From positions 248,001 to 312,000 of the forward strand of contig WTXA01000002.1 of the NCBI GenBank assembly GCA_009773805.1: 64,000 bases of DNA, read 5' to 3'. Below are positions 1-7,688 of this stretch, one piece after another. Position 1 is the stretch's first letter, and each line of letters opens with the position of its first letter. The position numbers and the translations under genes were made by a program. This DNA is from Fusobacteriota bacterium (GTDB lineage Bacteria; Bacillota; TC1). The notes under the pieces are model-generated. The model was not told the origin of the DNA. It worked only from the letters and a program-made list of their open reading frames with translations, and ran no database searches.

Positions 1-647
1 ACAGAATCTCCCTCTGCCTTAGCATCAACTATCACCTTTTCAATATCAAGTCCAACACTTTCTCTTAAAACAGGAACTCTCATCCCTCTTAGTGCTTCCA
101 ACATTCCTACATAATCTATTTCATCTTCCAATTTACTTAGATCTATAAAACTAATATCCTCTACATCATGAACCTGTTTCAAGTGAGCCCCGATTTCAAC
201 ACCATAGCTTTTTAGATACTCCTTGGCAATAGCTCCTGCAAACACTAGTGGAGCAGTCAGTCTTCCTGAGAAATGTCCCCCACCCCTATAATCATTAAAC
301 CCCCTATAATGAACAGCACCGGAATAATCACTATGTCCCGGTCTCATTTTAACTTTTAATTCACTATAGTCCTTGCTTTTAGTATCCTTGGAAAATATAA
401 TACCACAAATTGGAGCACCTGTAGTCTTACCCTCAAATACACCACTAACTATCTGAACTGCATCATCTTCTTGCCTTGGAGTAGCTAATTTACTAGTACC
501 AGGTTTCCTACGATCCATTTCGATTTTAATAGCTTCAAGATCTAGCTCTAGTCCAGGTGGCAGTCCATCAATAACTACACCCACAGCCTCACCATGTGAC
601 TCACCAAATATGCTTAAAGTAATATTCCCACTATAGACACTATTCAC
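1..647 (-). CDS. aroC: Chorismate synthase (3' part cut by window edge)
   Basis: Converts 5-enolpyruvylshikimate-3-phosphate to chorismate, the last step of the shikimate pathway, using reduced FMN. The N-terminal half is visible: FGESHGEA near residue 11, the MRPGHSDYSG segment and the RGGGHFSGRLTAP motif are all typical of the family. I chose the GTG at 645-647 because an AGGAGG box lies 8 bases upstream inside aroA; the first residues then read VNSVYSGNITLSIFGESHG. It overlaps the aroA stop by 8 bases, so the two genes are probably translationally coupled. The gene runs off the left edge after about 215 codons; the family is usually 360-390 residues. Confidence 0.95.
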   Translation of the reverse strand, partial: MNSVYSGNITLSIFGESHGEAVGVVIDGLPPGLELDLEAIKIEMDRRKPGTSKLATPRQEDDAVQIVSGVFEGKTTGAPICGIIFSKDTKSKDYSELKVKMRPGHSDYSGAVHYRGFNDYRGGGHFSGRLTAPLVFAGAIAKEYLKSYGVEIGAHLKQVHDVEDISFIDLSKLEDEIDYVGMLEALRGMRVPVLRESVGLDIEKVIVDAKAEGDS

Positions 648-1938
648 TAATCTTTCCTCCTAATTTTACAAAATCAGACCAGAACCTCGGATAGGATTTA
701 GCCACACTATTAGCACCTGTCAATACCAAAGGCTCCAAAGCCCTTTGACTAGCAACGCCAAGACTCATAGCAACCCTATGGTCATTCCAACTATCTACAG
801 CACCACCACTAAAACTTTCAACACCATTTATAGTCAGACTATCATCACCAATTAATATATTTGCTCCCATCTTCATCAACTCTTTTGAAGTTGACTCCAA
901 CCTATTAGATTCCTTAATCTTTAATCTCTCACCATTAATAATTCTAGTCTCACCCTCCGATAAACATGCTAACACAGAAAGTGCAGGAACCAAATCAGGG
1001 CATTCCCTAATATCAATCACTGTCCCTCTAGTCTTACTTGGTCTGAAGACAAAACCACCTGTGATTTCTTCAATATCAGCACCCATTTCCTTCATAATAT
1101 CAATAATTACCTTATCCCCTTGAAGAGAATGCCTATCAAGACCTGTACATCTAATTTCCTTTTGACCAATTGCTCCAGCTACTGCAAAAAAGGCCAATTG
1201 GGAATAATCCCCTTCCACCTCATAAACACCAGAGCTATATTTTTGATTTCCAGCAATCCTGAACACCCTGTAATCCTCATTTTCAATTACAATATCAAAA
1301 TCAGCCAAAGCCTTAATAGTCAGGTCAATATATGGTCTTGACTCTAAAGTAGTAGTCATTTCAATGACACTATCACCATCAAGAAGTGGTAAAGCATAGA
1401 GCAGCCCAGTAATAAACTGGGAGCTAATATCCCCTCTTACCTTAAAATGCCCAGGCTGTAATAATTCCCTACCACTTTCCAACACCAAGGGCAACCTGCC
1501 CTGATCATTTGTAAAATCAATACCTTGTTCTTGCATTATCTCATAATAGACGTTAAGAGGTCTCTCCCCTAGCTTACCTTTACCTTCTACAATAACCTCA
1601 TCACTAAAAAGAAGCAGCAAAGGTATTAGAAATCTTAGAGTAGAACCTGATTCGTTACAATTAAAAACCTTGTTCCTTAGCTTGAAGTTTTTACCGTTAC
1701 CCTCTATCACCAGGGTCAAGGTTCCATCAGCTTCTGCTATTCTATAAAAATCCACACCCAGATTATACATAACCTCGAGTGTTGCTTCAATATCCTTTGA
1801 TGCTTCAATATTCTTTATTATTACTTCTTGTTCACTTAAAGCTGCCCCAATAATATATCTATGAGCCATACTCTTAGAAGGTGGTATTTTAACCTCGCCA
1901 CCTAAATAATTAGGGTATATTGTGATTTTATCCTTCAT
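640..1938 (-). CDS. aroA: 3-phosphoshikimate 1-carboxyvinyltransferase (EPSP synthase)
   Basis: Transfers enolpyruvate from PEP to shikimate-3-phosphate in the shikimate pathway. At 432 residues it has the normal family length. Visible landmarks are the N-terminal PPSKSMAHR segment (Lys22 is the expected PEP-binding lysine), ESGSTLRFL near residue 95, the conserved KESNRLEST segment and the C-terminal WNDHRVAMSL motif. It is the fourth gene of the minus-strand aro operon, 12 bases after aroB and overlapping aroC. Function is sure from motifs and context. Confidence 0.97.
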   Translation of the reverse strand: MKDKITIYPNYLGGEVKIPPSKSMAHRYIIGAALSEQEVIIKNIEASKDIEATLEVMYNLGVDFYRIAEADGTLTLVIEGNGKNFKLRNKVFNCNESGSTLRFLIPLLLLFSDEVIVEGKGKLGERPLNVYYEIMQEQGIDFTNDQGRLPLVLESGRELLQPGHFKVRGDISSQFITGLLYALPLLDGDSVIEMTTTLESRPYIDLTIKALADFDIVIENEDYRVFRIAGNQKYSSGVYEVEGDYSQLAFFAVAGAIGQKEIRCTGLDRHSLQGDKVIIDIMKEMGADIEEITGGFVFRPSKTRGTVIDIRECPDLVPALSVLACLSEGETRIINGERLKIKESNRLESTSKELMKMGANILIGDDSLTINGVESFSGGAVDSWNDHRVAMSLGVASQRALEPLVLTGANSVAKSYPRFWSDFVKLGGKISE

Positions 1939-1950
1939 GATGTATCCCTC

Positions 1951-3030
1951 TTAAATTCCTCTATCTATAATATTCATCAAGTTTTCCTTTTTTTCTTCCA
2001 TGATGAAACTTTTTCCAATCTCACTTAACATTATTAAATTTATACTACTACCCTGGGCCTTTTTATCATAACCCATGGCCTTGACCACATCTTCTTTAAT
2101 ACCAACAGGAAATTTAGATGGTAGACCAGTTTTTTCTACCAACTTCTTCAGCCTCACATATATTCCAGCCTCAGTAACCCCTAAAGCTTCCCCTGCTTTA
2201 GCTATTACACACATTCCAATAGCAACAGCCTCCCCATGACTATGACCTACAAACTTCTCAACTTTTTCTATACCATGACCTACAGTATGACCAAAGTTAA
2301 GTAAAGCACGTCTACCATTTTCAAGTTCGTCCTCTTCTACGACAATACGCTTAAAGTTACAACACTCAAATATTACCTTCTCCATACTCTTACCAGCTCT
2401 AACACTCCCTAAGTCAAAATTCTCCGACTCTAAATAAGCAAAGAACTCTTCTGAGAATATAGCTCCATATTTTATAGCCTCAGCCATCCCATCAATAAAG
2501 AACTGCTCTTCTAAGGTTGTCAGTGTCGACTCGTCTATAAGGACACCCTTTGGTTGATAGAAAGCTCCAACTAGATTCTTCCCATAAGGAAGATCGATAG
2601 CTACCTTACCACCTATACTACTATCTATTTGAGCAAGTAAACTTGTTGGTATTTGAAAGAAATCTATCCCTCTTAAGTAAGTTGCAGCACAGTAACCAAC
2701 CAAGTCACCAATAACTCCACCACCTAGAGCAACTAACATATCCTTACGGCCCATACCATTATCTAGCATAAACTTATATATCTCCATGGCTACATCAATA
2801 TTCTTTGAAGCCTCACCTGGTTCTACTACATACTTAACTACTTCTATACCACTATTTTGGATTGAGGACATAACCAACTCACCATAGTATTTATCTACAT
2901 TCTTATCAGTTACCAGAGCAATCTTACTACCTCTTAAAAATGGATGGATAATGACCCCAGCTTTATTTAGGGAGTTTTTCTCTATAACTATATCATAACT
3001 CTTTTCTCCTAATTCTACACCTAAAATCAT
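1951..3030 (-). CDS. aroB: 3-dehydroquinate synthase
   Basis: Cyclises DAHP to 3-dehydroquinate, using NAD and a divalent metal. The protein is 359 residues, the usual size. The nucleotide-binding segment ALGGGVIGDLVG (101-112) and the metal-binding histidine segments NFGHTVGHG and HSHGEAVAIGM are intact. The ATG overlaps the tyrA stop in an ATGA arrangement, which indicates translational coupling within the aro operon. Confidence 0.97.
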   Translation of the reverse strand: MILGVELGEKSYDIVIEKNSLNKAGVIIHPFLRGSKIALVTDKNVDKYYGELVMSSIQNSGIEVVKYVVEPGEASKNIDVAMEIYKFMLDNGMGRKDMLVALGGGVIGDLVGYCAATYLRGIDFFQIPTSLLAQIDSSIGGKVAIDLPYGKNLVGAFYQPKGVLIDESTLTTLEEQFFIDGMAEAIKYGAIFSEEFFAYLESENFDLGSVRAGKSMEKVIFECCNFKRIVVEEDELENGRRALLNFGHTVGHGIEKVEKFVGHSHGEAVAIGMCVIAKAGEALGVTEAGIYVRLKKLVEKTGLPSKFPVGIKEDVVKAMGYDKKAQGSSINLIMLSEIGKSFIMEEKKENLMNIIDRGI

Positions 3031-3860
3031 TTATCTATCCTTTCCTTGATAGCTTTAATTGTTCTCATTTTTTCTTCAAGTCCTATTTTATCATTATTAT
3101 CTAACTTTTCCTTAAATATTGTCAATTCTCCGATTAACTTATCTATCTCTTCTACCAATGGACCCTTATTCATTAAAAACAGTTCAGACCATAGTTTTTC
3201 ATTAATATTAGCTACTCTTGTTGCATCAAGAAAACTCCTGCCCACAATCTTCTCACTACCCTCCCTATAGGCTCCCACCAGAGCTAAAGCCAAAAGATGA
3301 GGCATATGGCTAGTGTAAGCCACTAAAGCATCATGCTCTACCGGTGTCATTTCAAAGATATTCTTTACACCTAGTGTATTAGCTAGTTCTCTTACAATCA
3401 CTAACCCATCACTAGAATTCCTGTCTGTAGGGGTAATTATGAAGTTAGATCCTAGGAAAAGCTCTTCACGAGCCCCCCTTATCCCACTTACTTCACGACC
3501 AGCCATTGGATGAGTTCCTACAAATTCCACATCAGGTAATTCCTCTTGAATTCTACTGACCAACTCACCCTTCAAACCAGCTACATCCATAAGTATCTGG
3601 TCTTGATGCCAGATACTTTTATGTTCTAATATATAGTTGATAATATCTCCTGGGTATAGGGCGAATATAATAATATCAGCATCCCTTAAAATCTCTTCCG
3701 GGTTTGTTGATCCTCTATCGATTATTTTCCTATCCATGGCAATGGATAAGACTTCTTTGTCCCTGTCGACTGCCAGGATTTCACCAACCTTTCCTCTTAA
3801 GCTTAAAGCTATTGAAGCGCCGATTAATCCTAGGCCGACTATACCTATTTTTTTATCCAC
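3027..3860 (-). CDS. tyrA: Prephenate dehydrogenase
   Basis: Oxidative decarboxylation of prephenate to 4-hydroxyphenylpyruvate for tyrosine synthesis. The Rossmann motif GLGLIGASIALSL starts at residue 9, and the THPMAGRE segment is a family signature. The length of 277 residues fits a stand-alone enzyme; there is no C-terminal ACT domain and no fused chorismate mutase. It starts at a GTG whose first G is the last base of the aroF stop (TAGTG), so aroF and tyrA are tightly coupled. Confidence 0.94.
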   Translation of the reverse strand: MDKKIGIVGLGLIGASIALSLRGKVGEILAVDRDKEVLSIAMDRKIIDRGSTNPEEILRDADIIIFALYPGDIINYILEHKSIWHQDQILMDVAGLKGELVSRIQEELPDVEFVGTHPMAGREVSGIRGAREELFLGSNFIITPTDRNSSDGLVIVRELANTLGVKNIFEMTPVEHDALVAYTSHMPHLLALALVGAYREGSEKIVGRSFLDATRVANINEKLWSELFLMNKGPLVEEIDKLIGELTIFKEKLDNNDKIGLEEKMRTIKAIKERIDK

Positions 3861-4876
3861 TATCTTTCCATCTCCAATACGGCTTCTCTTAAAAGACGAA
3901 CTTTCTTCATCATCTTATCGAAGGTTTCAGGAATCAAGGATTGTTGTCCATCACTTACTGCTTCTTCTGGTCTGTGGTGTACTTCGATAGTAATACCATC
4001 TGCACCAATAGCCACTGCCGCTTTTGCAAGTGGTTCTACCAACCAGAAAATTCCTCCAGCGTGACTAGGATCTATAACTATTGGCAAATGGCTTTTTCTT
4101 TTAATAACTGGTACTGCACTAATATCTAGAGTGTTTCTAGTCATAGTTTCAAAGGTTCTAATACCTCTTTCACAAAGAATAACATTCTCGTTACCTTCAG
4201 ACATAATGTATTCTGCCGCCATTAGGAATTCTTCAAATGTTGCACAAAGACCTCTTTTTAAAAGTACAGGTGTTTTTACCTTGCCTACTTCTTTAAGCAA
4301 ATCAAAGTTTTGCATATTTCTAGCACCAATTTGGATAATATCTACATCTTCTGCAAATAGTTCTACATGCGCTGGGGCCATGAACTCGGTAATAATTGGT
4401 AGACCAGTTTCTTGTCTAGCAATTTTCATAATCTCGATACCGGCTTTGCCCATTCCTTGGAAACTATAAGGTGAGGTTCTTGGTTTGAAAGCTCCACCTC
4501 TTAGGAAGTTAGCTCCAGATGCTTTAACAGCTCTAGCTATAGTTAGAAATTGTTCCTCACTTTCAATAGCACAAGGTCCAGCAATAACACCAAAGTGTCC
4601 ACCACCTATTTTTTGTCCCATTACTTCAACAATTGTATCTTCCGGATGGAAGGTTCTGTTGGCTTTTTTGTAAGGTTCTTGGATTCTCATAACTTTTTCT
4701 ACTACTGAGCTTAGTTCTATTTGTCCTGCGTTAAGTGATCTGGTGTCACCGATTAGTCCAAATATTGTTTGATCTTGTCCTACTGTTATACTTACAATAA
4801 TTCCTTTGTCTTCTAAGATTTTTTTCATTTTGTCTAGTTCTGCTCCAGATGCTCCTGGTTTGAATACGATTACCAT
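3860..4876 (-). CDS. aroF: 3-deoxy-7-phosphoheptulonate (DAHP) synthase, type I-beta
   Basis: Condenses PEP with erythrose-4-phosphate, the committed step of aromatic amino acid synthesis. Residues 1 to about 70 form the ferredoxin-like N-terminal regulatory domain found in Thermotoga-type enzymes (start MVIVFKPGASGAELDKM). The TIM-barrel domain shows AGPCAIES, RGGAFKPRTSP and the metal-binding DPSHAGG segment. It starts at an ATG behind a strong AAGGAGG box. It is the first structural gene of the operon and directly follows a leader peptide and an intrinsic terminator, so expression is probably set by attenuation of transcription as well as by feedback through the N-terminal domain. Confidence 0.97.
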   Translation of the reverse strand: MVIVFKPGASGAELDKMKKILEDKGIIVSITVGQDQTIFGLIGDTRSLNAGQIELSSVVEKVMRIQEPYKKANRTFHPEDTIVEVMGQKIGGGHFGVIAGPCAIESEEQFLTIARAVKASGANFLRGGAFKPRTSPYSFQGMGKAGIEIMKIARQETGLPIITEFMAPAHVELFAEDVDIIQIGARNMQNFDLLKEVGKVKTPVLLKRGLCATFEEFLMAAEYIMSEGNENVILCERGIRTFETMTRNTLDISAVPVIKRKSHLPIVIDPSHAGGIFWLVEPLAKAAVAIGADGITIEVHHRPEEAVSDGQQSLIPETFDKMMKKVRLLREAVLEMER

Positions 4877-4890
4877 TTTTTTCCTCCTTA

Positions 4891-4928
4891 AAATAAAAAA
4901 CGAGAAGGCACATTAGAGCCTTCTCGTT
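4891..4928 (-). terminator. Intrinsic terminator in the aro leader (attenuator)
   Basis: In the minus-strand transcript a 9-11 bp stem (arms 4899-4909 and 4918-4928, core CGAGAAGGC) is followed by a U-rich run (4891-4900). It ends only about 15 bases before the aroF start, inside the leader, not after a gene. That position is typical of an attenuator. Confidence 0.88.
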
Positions 4929-4958
4929 GCTTTTACAATTTAATATAAAATCAGACCC

Positions 4959-5026
4959 TACTTTTATTCACTTCCAACACAAAATGCCCAACCAAAAAAG
5001 TTTGAGCTAAAGAAGTAATAAAAGTA
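4959..5026 (-). promoter_or_regulatory. Leader RNA hairpin over the aromatic codons
   Basis: An inverted repeat with 15-16 base arms (4959-4974 against 5012-5026) matches perfectly except for one bulged base. In the RNA, the first arm is exactly codons 11-15 (Tyr-Phe-Tyr-Tyr-Phe) of the leader peptide, and the second arm covers the leader stop codon. A ribosome stalled on aromatic codons would melt this hairpin. An obvious antiterminator pairing of the second arm with the terminator stem was not found by eye. Confidence 0.6.
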
Positions 5027-5056
5027 TTCAGTTGTAATTTTAATCAATTTATCCAT
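4964..5056 (-). CDS. Aromatic-rich leader peptide of the aro operon
   Basis: A 30-codon ORF lies between the aro promoter and the attenuator. Residues 11-25 read YFYYFFSSNFFGWAF: 6 Phe, 3 Tyr and 1 Trp in 15 positions. Such density upstream of a terminator and a DAHP synthase gene is the mark of a leader peptide that senses charged aromatic tRNAs, comparable in logic to E. coli pheL. The ATG (5054-5056) is about 27 bases from the predicted transcription start. The best ribosome site, AAAGG, sits 12 bases upstream, rather far. No homologous peptide is recalled; the function is inferred from composition and position. Confidence 0.75.
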   Translation of the reverse strand: MDKLIKITTEYFYYFFSSNFFGWAFCVGSE

Positions 5057-5089
5057 AAATAAAACCAACCTTTGTCTTCATCTGAAATA

Positions 5090-5118
5090 ATTATAAAATA
5101 ATATATTGTAAATGTCAA
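5090..5118 (-). promoter_or_regulatory. Promoter of the aro operon
   Basis: Perfect consensus TTGACA (5113-5118) and TATAAT (5090-5095) separated by 17 bases on the minus strand. Transcription should begin near 5083, giving a leader of about 205 bases before aroF. Confidence 0.85.
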
Positions 5119-5124
5119 TAAATC

Positions 5125-5153
5125 TTAACAAATAGAAAATAAGGGTATATAAT
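5125..5153 (+). promoter_or_regulatory. Promoter of the ABC exporter operon
   Basis: TTAACA (5125-5130), 17 bases, TATAAT (5148-5153) on the plus strand, back to back with the aro promoter and about 30 bases from the ABC gene start. Confidence 0.75.
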
Positions 5154-5185
5154 CATAGATATATTGAAAACAAGGAGTGGTAAAT

Positions 5186-6076
5186 ATGGCAGGTAATATT
5201 ATAGAAATTAAAAACCTAACCAAGTACTATGGCAAGTCTCGTGGGGTCATTGATATATCATTTGATATTAAGGAAGGTGAGATTTTTGGTTTCATCGGAC
5301 CTAATGGTGCCGGGAAGTCAACAACGATTCGGACATTACTTAATCTAATCCATCCAACAAGTGGTGAATGTACCATATTTGGTCTTGATACTAGAAAATA
5401 TCCAGCGAAGATAGCCGAGGAAGTTGGCTATATCCCTTCTGAGATTTTCTACTATGATAATATGCGAGTTAAGGAATTACTAAAATATTCTGCCAGCTTC
5501 TATAAGAAAGATAGCAAAAAAAGAATGCATGAACTTGTAGAACTTATGGAACTTGATGTTAATAAAAGAATAAGAGACCTATCATTAGGTAATAAAAAGA
5601 AAGTAGGAATTGTTCAGGGTTTGATGCATGAACCTCGCCTTATCATCCTAGACGAACCTACAAGTGGACTTGATCCTCTAATGCAACAAAGATTCTTTGA
5701 CTTAATAAAGGAAGAAAATGCTAAAGGTTCTACAGTACTGTTCTCTTCACATATTCTAAATGAAGTGCAAAAGCTTTCTCATAGAGTTGGTATTGTTAAA
5801 GATGGTTACTTAATTAAACTTGAAGATATGAATACCCTAAGAGAGAAAACCTATAAGAGAGTCATGATTGAAAGTTCAACACCAATTGATCAAAGCTACT
5901 TCCAAATTAACGGTACCAAGAATTTTGAGCTTGATGGTGATAAATTAAGTTTCCTTTATAGCGGAGATATTAATCTATTAACAGAGAGAATTTCTAAATT
6001 ATCAATTCGTGATTTATTAATTGATGATCCTGATTTGGAGGATATATTTATGCACTATTATGAGAGGGAGGCTTAA
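5186..6076 (+). CDS. ABC-2 type exporter, ATP-binding protein
   Basis: ATPase subunit of a drug/lipid-type ABC-2 exporter. Walker A GPNGAGKST is at about 38-46, Walker B is LIILDEPTSGLDP, and the signature loop is the variant LSLGNKKK instead of LSGGQ. The H-loop SSHIL follows. About 70 C-terminal residues after the core ATPase form the usual accessory region. I place the start at the ATG at 5186, 8 bases after AAGGAG; the upstream in-frame GTG (5177) overlaps that ribosome site. The next two genes are its permeases. The substrate is unknown. Confidence 0.93.
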   Translation: MAGNIIEIKNLTKYYGKSRGVIDISFDIKEGEIFGFIGPNGAGKSTTIRTLLNLIHPTSGECTIFGLDTRKYPAKIAEEVGYIPSEIFYYDNMRVKELLKYSASFYKKDSKKRMHELVELMELDVNKRIRDLSLGNKKKVGIVQGLMHEPRLIILDEPTSGLDPLMQQRFFDLIKEENAKGSTVLFSSHILNEVQKLSHRVGIVKDGYLIKLEDMNTLREKTYKRVMIESSTPIDQSYFQINGTKNFELDGDKLSFLYSGDINLLTERISKLSIRDLLIDDPDLEDIFMHYYEREA

Positions 6077-6077
6077 G

Positions 6078-6875
6078 ATGAATATTTATATTCATGAATT
6101 AAAGACTAATCTTAAGAGTAGTATTTCTTATCTTATAGGGATGATTGTTTTTTCAGCTTTCTATGTTTCCTTTTATCAGGTTTTTACAGATGAGGCTTTT
6201 GGTTTTTTGAAAATGCTTGAGGGTTTCCCTCCTGCTTTTCAAAACGCCTTCGGTCTCGATATAGCTAATATTATGTCACCTATGGGCTATTATGCTTTTG
6301 TTCTTTTCTATATTTTACTAATAGCTTCTATCCAGGGCATGAACCTTGGCGTTTCAATCCTATCAAAGGAAGAACGGGAGAAGACAGCCGATTTCTTAAT
6401 GACTAAACCTGCCTCAAGATCTTGGATAATGATGTCTAAGTTAGATGCTGCTATTACTATAATAATATTATCTAATCTTGTGTTGTATTTAACTTCCTAC
6501 TTATCAGTTACCTATATCATTAAGGATGATTTTAGTTTTAAGGTGTTCACTCTTCTTCATTTATCGGTGTTTATCGTCGAAATGATTTTCTTAAGCATCG
6601 GTTTTTTAATTGGTGTTTTTTTAAAGAGAATCAAGTCTACCATTTCCATAACTATGGCTGTAGTTTTCGGTTTTTTTGCTATAGGTGCATTTGCAGTAAA
6701 TGCTAGTGATGATAAAATGCGTTATTTAACACCTTTTAAGTATTTTGATACCTCCTATATTTTAAAGAATGAAAGTTTTGAGTTAAGTTATCTTTTAGTT
6801 GGTATTGGGGTTATCTTGGTTAGTCTTGTTGTCAGTTATTTGATCTATGTCAATAAAGACATTGATAGTGTCTAG
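6078..6875 (+). CDS. ABC-2 type exporter permease
   Basis: Membrane subunit with about six hydrophobic segments (265 residues). It contains the SKEEREKTADFLMTKPASR segment found in ABC-2 permeases between the second and third membrane helices. The start is the ATG directly after the ATPase stop, with a GGGAGG box upstream inside the ATPase gene. It is paralogous to the next gene, so the transporter is probably a heterodimer of permeases with one ATPase. Confidence 0.9.
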   Translation: MNIYIHELKTNLKSSISYLIGMIVFSAFYVSFYQVFTDEAFGFLKMLEGFPPAFQNAFGLDIANIMSPMGYYAFVLFYILLIASIQGMNLGVSILSKEEREKTADFLMTKPASRSWIMMSKLDAAITIIILSNLVLYLTSYLSVTYIIKDDFSFKVFTLLHLSVFIVEMIFLSIGFLIGVFLKRIKSTISITMAVVFGFFAIGAFAVNASDDKMRYLTPFKYFDTSYILKNESFELSYLLVGIGVILVSLVVSYLIYVNKDIDSV

Positions 6876-6887
6876 GGGGGTGTTGTG

Positions 6888-7688
6888 ATGAATATTTTTT
6901 TCAAGGAATTGAAATCTCATAGGAAATCTTTAATAATTTGGTCTGTTGCTCTTGTATTGTATGTTGCTATGGCAATGGTTAAGTATGATGCGACTGTTAG
7001 TGTTGGAGATAGTATGACAGCTCTTATTGAAACTATGCCTAAGGTTTTCCAGAGTATGTTAGGTCTTGGTTTTTTTGATCTTAATACTCCTATTGGTTTT
7101 TTTGCAGCTACTTTTACTTATTTAATGTTACTAGGAGCAATTCACGGTAGTATGCTTGGGGCTAATATTTTGTCTGCTGAGGAGAGGGATAAGACTTCTG
7201 AATTCTTGATGGTTAAGCCAGTCACTAGGAACATGGTTGTGCTTTCTAAGATGTGTGCTTCTTTGGTTAATATTGTGATTTTTAATCTTGTAGTAACAAT
7301 AGCTTCAGTTGTTATAGTTAACGGCTATGGTACAGGTGGGGAAACTTTTACTAATGATATTTTGGCTCTTATGCTCGGTTTCTTTGTTATTGAGTTGATA
7401 TTTTTCATTATTGGATTTTTCTTATCAACTGTTTTACGACGCTCAAGGTTTGCACCTTCTTTAGTAACTTCTATTCTCTTGATCACCTTCTTACTTAGTG
7501 TGTTGGCTGATATGTTTGATGCTGTTAAGTGGTTTAAATATTTTAGTCCTTTTTCATATTTTGATCCTAAGATGTTGCTTGGTTTTGTTGAGCCTAATTT
7601 AGTTCAAATTGGTTTAGGTATACTAAGTATCATCATATTAGGTTCTTTATCATTCTTTTTCTATAACAAGAGAGATTTGGAGATTTAG
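6888..7688 (+). CDS. ABC-2 type exporter permease (second subunit)
   Basis: 267 residues with about six membrane segments. It carries the same cytoplasmic segment as its neighbour ([19 protein letters not shown]), so the two permeases arose by duplication. The ATG at 6888 has a G-rich ribosome site 7 bases upstream; a GTG immediately before it is also possible. The substrate cannot be told from sequence. Confidence 0.9.

Follow-up and report, generated by a model that had tools for sequence, protein, structure and literature searches.

A probable ribosome-mediated attenuator with mixed aromatic control codons at the head of a Firmicute aro operon

What is the role of a short open reading frame (ORF) crowded with phenylalanine and tyrosine codons, with an intrinsic terminator behind it, at the head of an aro operon in the Firmicutes, a group in which control of amino acid operons is commonly ascribed to T-boxes, TRAP or repressors? 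The locus lies in a stretch of 64,000 nucleotides from a clostridial bacterium, here called the window, and a preliminary description had proposed that ribosome stalling on the aromatic codons controls the operon. That proposal is supported by conserved leaders in relatives, by the absence of a T-box here, by a candidate antiterminator and by pairing matched locus by locus. Very probably the leader is a trp-type ribosome-mediated attenuator that sets transcription of the aro operon according to the charging of Phe-, Tyr- and possibly Trp-tRNA; its elements can be read from the DNA, the ribosome-dependent switch between pairings is a computed one, and stalling and read-through are what we infer.

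The elements of the leader and the genes that it precedes are collected in Table 1. Re-reading recovered the consensus promoter, the 30-codon ORF with its aromatic run and the terminator just ahead of the first gene that had been reported before, and the hairpin given as 15–16 bp, with one arm on the Tyr/Phe codons and the other on the leader stop, was found as 15 pairs and one bulge. The first gene had been called aroF, a loose name, because it encodes a DAHP synthase of the Bacillus subtilis type (TIGR01361, type I-beta). Beyond the window, a pheA-like gene follows aroC in a by-eye reading. On the other side lies a divergent ABC-2-type transporter operon (5125–7688, plus strand), comprising an ATPase (5177–6076) and two more, permease-like ORFs up to 7688, with a near-perfect promoter of its own (TTAACA-17-TATAAT, 5125–5153, plus strand) that lies next to the aro promoter and points away from it.

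Table 1. Features of the aro leader and operon (positions are those of the window)
Feature	Position	Strand	Remarks
aro operon promoter, sigma-70-type, TTGACA-17-TATAAT	5090..5118	-	12/12 consensus
Shine-Dalgarno-like sequence of leader ORF, AAAGGTTGG	5065..5073	-	sequence reading
Leader peptide ORF, 30 codons, MDKLIKITTEYFYYFFSSNFFGWAFCVGSE then stop	4964..5056	-	aligned without frameshift in four congeneric genomes
Control codons 11–25, 10/15 aromatic (6 Phe, 3 Tyr, 1 Trp)	4982..5026	-	
Segment 1, 5' arm of 1:2 hairpin, codons 11–15, UACUUUUAUUACUUC	5012..5026	-	
ORF-internal hairpin, GCUCAAAC-UUUUUU-GGUUGGGC, then AUUUUGU	4986..5007	-	
Segment 2, 3' arm of 1:2 hairpin over leader stop codon, GAAGUGAAUAAAAGUA	4959..4974	-	
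Candidate antiterminator 5' strand, UAGGGUCU, directly 3' of leader stop	4953..4960	-	
Candidate antiterminator 3' strand, AGGCUCUA, terminator 5' arm and loop (segment 3)	4914..4921	-	
Intrinsic terminator, stem-loop 4928–4899, 11 pairs, and T-tract	4890..4928	-	
DAHP (3-deoxy-7-phosphoheptulonate) synthase, operon gene 1, ATG at 4876	3860..4876	-	NF006421 492 bits, TIGR01361 400 bits
Prephenate dehydrogenase (tyrA-type)	3027..3860	-	
aroB, 3-dehydroquinate synthase	1951..3030	-	
aroA, EPSP synthase	640..1938	-	
aroC, chorismate synthase, runs past window edge	1..647	-	

Three hallmarks of trp-type attenuators are thus found in the leader itself, namely a short ORF with a ribosome-binding site that is rich in codons for the end products, a 1:2 pairing between the control-codon region and the stop region, and an intrinsic terminator between the leader and the first structural gene. 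The leader RNA also folds more stably than its dinucleotide shuffles (z = -4.4), and the scan that located the terminator stem of the window has an expectation of 0.1 per shuffled region. In four relatives (L002–L005), AAGGTTGG or AAGGTGG is retained as the Shine-Dalgarno sequence of the leader, and the promoter layout of the window is visible in L002–L004. Within the genus, the differences in the leader ORF are mostly nonsynonymous outside the aromatic run and therefore give no signal of purifying selection for the peptide as such, the synonymous and nonsynonymous counts being too few, and too constrained by RNA pairing, to show selection on it. An upstream, out-of-frame ATG near the transcript start (MKTKVGFIYG, then stop) is missing from L002 and L003 and was taken as chance. 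A DNA search of the window's own genome for second copies of the leader returned only short AT- or Shine-Dalgarno-like matches.

Comparable leaders precede many other DAHP synthase genes. Among 190 upstream regions (110 from a genome sample and 80 from named records), an ORF preceded by a Shine-Dalgarno sequence and having at least seven aromatic codons in 15 was found in 51, as against 0.6 % of shuffles, and at least nine in 15 in 31 of the 190, as against a null of 0.03 %; the leaders are kin, so that these counts are not fully independent. The named set, with leaders in 40 of its 80 regions, was chosen by similarity to leader-bearing genes, and its rate is therefore no census. An aromatic leader ORF is present wherever the genus (four genomes), the family (one member) and the order (three members) gave a DAHP synthase match, so the aromatic run, whose presence in related leaders had been named as a check, is conserved at the level of genus, family and order. 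About 45 further leader loci belong to Clostridia, Negativicutes and a few other groups; cultured species with such a leader include Papillibacter cinnamivorans, Angelakisella massiliensis and Clostridium ganghwense. Outside the window's own order, leaders are scarcer in the phylum-wide sample, where three regions reach the seven-in-15 threshold and L009 and L010 are weaker cases. Of the 51 leaders, 47 contain two or more Phe codons together with two or more Tyr codons, and 16 also have Trp; a terminator stands between leader and gene in 55 of the 58 loci with at least six aromatics. In a quick tree of DAHP synthases with many weak forks, 52 of 53 leaders fall inside one large group of 82 rows; hence, the leader travels with one enzyme lineage. 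In one metagenome-assembled genome labelled Treponema (L185), the DAHP synthase groups among clostridial genes and is preceded by a leader reaching 10 aromatics in 15 and by a terminator, reflecting either transfer or wrong binning. There is also a class of short leaders of 16–22 codons (L139, L145, L147, L154, L160, L164, L166, L175 and L191), in which the aromatic run extends almost to the stop and, in most, an antiterminator strand lies just past it (about +1 to +17).

The preliminary description had left the antiterminator pairing unresolved. Masked folding, in which only the RNA downstream of the ribosome was folded, up to a point before the 3' arm of the terminator, now offers a candidate, and the most likely antiterminator of the window is predicted to be UAGGGUCU paired with AGGCUCUA. 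By this calculation, which uses equilibrium folding in place of co-transcriptional kinetics, the probability that AGGC in the terminator arm pairs with upstream RNA is 0.93–0.96 with the A-site at codon 11, 15, 20 or 25, and 0.01–0.06 with the ribosome at the stop. The check suggested earlier, of folding the leader with the ribosome masked at the aromatic codons and at the stop, has thus given an antiterminator that forms in the one case and is lost in the other; in computed terms, it is barred while a ribosome occupies the stop and can form while the ribosome is still on the control codons, as in trp-type attenuators. The outcome is stable to mask offset and to the assumed ribosome footprint, and the drop at the stop recurs in three congeners, being weakest in L002 (0.24–0.40 left). 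The pairing is also retained in relatives despite one-sided changes (GGGUCU to GAGUCU; AGGCUC to AGACUC in L005). With no ribosome on the leader, the folding model is not strongly terminating, which counts against the attenuator reading.

Two other pairings were considered. One, found by eye, joins codons 19–23 (CUUUUUUGGUUG) to CAACGAGAAGG and shows a G-C to A-U change in L002; being upstream of a ribosome sitting at the stop, it would escape masking, and partition-function folding preferred UAGGGUCU/AGGCUCUA. The other, between codons 23–27 and GCAACGAGAAGGCUC, is longer, uses the same terminator arm and ranks first among the plain duplexes of the window, yet it is weaker in L004 (by eye) and is not favoured in full folding; it is a possible alternative to UAGGGUCU/AGGCUCUA.

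When the window locus is considered singly, its terminator arm is sequestered no more than those of shuffled sequences (p = 0.55), and single-locus energetics are therefore not taken as proof; the claim for the window leans on its relatives, and the case for an attenuator there is one argued from position, conservation and a many-locus test. Across loci, upstream RNA sequesters the 5' arm of the terminator more than it does in shuffles (Wilcoxon p = 1e-5). When each arm was set against its own and against other loci's leader sequence, the stop window (-45 to +25) gave -12.5 kcal/mol with its own arm and -9.3 kcal/mol with foreign arms (z = -9.2, 47 loci), and the signal held after thinning to 33 loci (z = -8.6). 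It is maximal at -20 to +10 around the leader stop, a peak that coincides with the seat of a ribosome at the stop codon, and a control region 70–120 nt upstream gave no arm-pairing signal. The test is conservative owing to pairing among the arms of related loci. The leader ORF is likewise matched to its own stop region (z = -7.4, 44 loci), whereas two controls upstream of the ATG are not significant (z = +0.5 and -1.6). With these locus-specific complementarities, the full set of segments (1, 2, 3 and 4) that makes up a trp-type attenuator is thus present.

A further structure lies inside the ORF. The hairpin within the aromatic run of the window is supported against codon-shuffled leaders at p of about 0.01, and a hairpin so placed, followed by a U-rich tract, reaches p < 0.05 in 19 of 48 long leaders by codon shuffles; the short-leader class is without it. 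In the long leaders, the U-rich tract is built largely from aromatic codons, and the arms of the hairpin coincide with the conserved peptide motifs SxGFFFSAG and FTYFFGKAY. In the trp leader, the 1:2 hairpin keeps ribosome and RNA polymerase in step. By analogy, the ORF hairpin with its U-tract is probably a pause signal for RNA polymerase that serves the same end, although it may possibly cause early termination in the absence of translation instead.

Put together, the proposed mechanism would run as follows. Transcription would begin at the aro promoter, and a ribosome would translate the 30-codon leader, with the ORF hairpin and U-tract probably holding RNA polymerase for it. When the aromatic tRNAs are charged, the ribosome would reach the stop codon and cover UAGGGUCU just behind it; the 5' arm of the terminator would then be free, the terminator would form and transcription would halt before the operon. 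When Phe or Tyr (or Trp) runs low, the ribosome would stall within codons 11–25, leaving segment 2 free, and UAGGGUCU would pair with AGGCUCUA before the 3' arm of the terminator is made, so that RNA polymerase reads through.

Chance is the plainest rival to this account: an AT-rich 5' UTR, in which TTT, TTC, TAT and TAC are common, would yield Phe and Tyr codons, and the terminator would merely end a small transcript or shield the operon against transcription arriving from upstream. Its probability is close to nil, as an ORF with a Shine-Dalgarno sequence and at least 10 aromatics in 15 arises in only two of 2000 dinucleotide-keeping shuffles of the window's upstream region, the ORF is conserved in frame in relatives, the complementarity is matched to the locus, and the pattern kept in 51 of 190 loci speaks against chance as far as sequence can; moreover, the gene upstream runs divergently and so supplies no transcript for the terminator to end. 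It is also very improbable that control of the leader lies with a trans-acting factor or with an undescribed riboswitch, the ORF being incidental or serving only to couple translation. A terminator with alternative pairings would indeed serve a ligand- or protein-gated switch equally well; however, translation is favoured as the sensor by ORFs enriched in aromatic residues at dozens of loci, by a pairing sequence that in most loci sits at the leader stop, and by the lack of any Rfam riboswitch or T-box match.

An attenuator of another kind, in which a free aromatic amino acid is bound by the nascent peptide inside the exit tunnel, as in TnaC, and uncharged tRNA is not what is sensed, is very improbable too. 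Motifs such as SxGFFFSAG and FTYFFGKAY are common to the leaders of distant loci, as a peptide sensor might lead one to expect, but they coincide with the two arms of the ORF hairpin and co-vary with it (e.g. L196), so that RNA structure explains them; short leaders lack the motifs and keep the aromatic run alone, and the sign would be odd, given that a biosynthetic operon should turn on in scarcity.

If the leader is a trp-type attenuator, it may be asked why it is used in place of a T-box. T-box leaders also sense tRNA charging and control a terminator, but a T-box reads one tRNA, whereas the window leader would sense by the translation of several codons and could therefore read more than one tRNA at once. 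A search of the window leader with the T-box model (RF00230) gave no match at the gathering score; the same model found six T-boxes elsewhere in the genome, five of them above the cut-off. These six (L111–L116) precede leuA, thrS, valS, pheS, trpE and ilvE. Thus, in one genome, T-boxes stand at genes for a single aromatic amino acid (pheS and trpE), and the shared first step has a mixed-codon leader. No T-box occurs in the 20 leader-bearing loci scanned; among 40 loci scanned that lack a leader, four from other Firmicutes (L118, L042, L051 and L062) have one directly ahead of DAHP synthase, at 1196–1445 in L118, as another sensor for this gene. A sensible reason for the choice of a leader over a T-box would be that it combines several aromatic tRNAs at the first step, which is shared, and the division of labour amounts to a simple, testable rule of sensor use.

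Translation of the leader thus most likely decides transcription into the aro operon, with a like switch in dozens of relatives, and the UAGGGUCU/AGGCUCUA antiterminator offers a clear target for mutation. A leader peptide seems to gate the aromatic pathway as a whole at dozens of clostridial and negativicute loci, some of them in gut taxa (e.g. Oscillibacter, Phascolarctobacterium and Lachnospiraceae). A wider proposal, to which we give slightly less than an even chance, is that these leaders form an old, widespread clostridial class of attenuator at the shikimate entrance, which would read Phe-, Tyr- and Trp-tRNA jointly, unlike a one-codon T-box, and would carry a second switch within the ORF, where the aromatic-codon U-tract hairpin pauses or terminates RNA polymerase unless a ribosome follows and dictates the conserved peptide motifs.

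Leader-peptide attenuation is a classical mechanism. Outside the Proteobacteria and Actinobacteria, it was first reported in 2010, for histidine (PMC2965389); the Bacillus hisS and hisZ leader peptides of that study were the first cases in Firmicutes, differing in that they concern histidine and other genes and have no aromatic run. The uORFC-13-1 motif before aroF, known from 24 examples in Acholeplasma and environmental sequences only, resembles the window leader by description in its predicted uORF with Phe codon(s) and its terminator before a DAHP synthase gene; that description includes an added stem of unknown role and, as far as it goes, gives neither an antiterminator logic nor a link to Clostridia (PMC8632094). 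A figure legend in another survey lists two candidate Phe/Tyr uORFs before shikimate genes in five genomes, including Clostridium novyi (PMC6429828), which may include clostridial relatives of the present element. Hence, the mechanism was known and two surveys had hinted at aromatic uORFs before shikimate genes; literature searches covering the main texts of the earlier surveys found no description of the clostridial class, and no Rfam family covers it. What is new is its breadth, the proposed antiterminator and the conserved ORF hairpin with its U-tract, in a distribution that is wide and poorly described. With trpL and pheL of enterobacteria, the window leader shares a control-codon ORF, a 1:2 hairpin over control codons and stop, a terminator arm freed or tied up according to ribosome position, and an intrinsic terminator before the first gene. 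There is no sequence homology between them, and the Rfam Phe_leader model (RF01859) scores 19.0 bits on the window leader (E = 0.71), below its cut-off of 55. Unlike trpL and pheL, the window leader mixes Phe, Tyr and some Trp among its control codons, as suits a common first step, places its main antiterminator strand just past the stop codon and has an extra hairpin with a U-tract inside the ORF.
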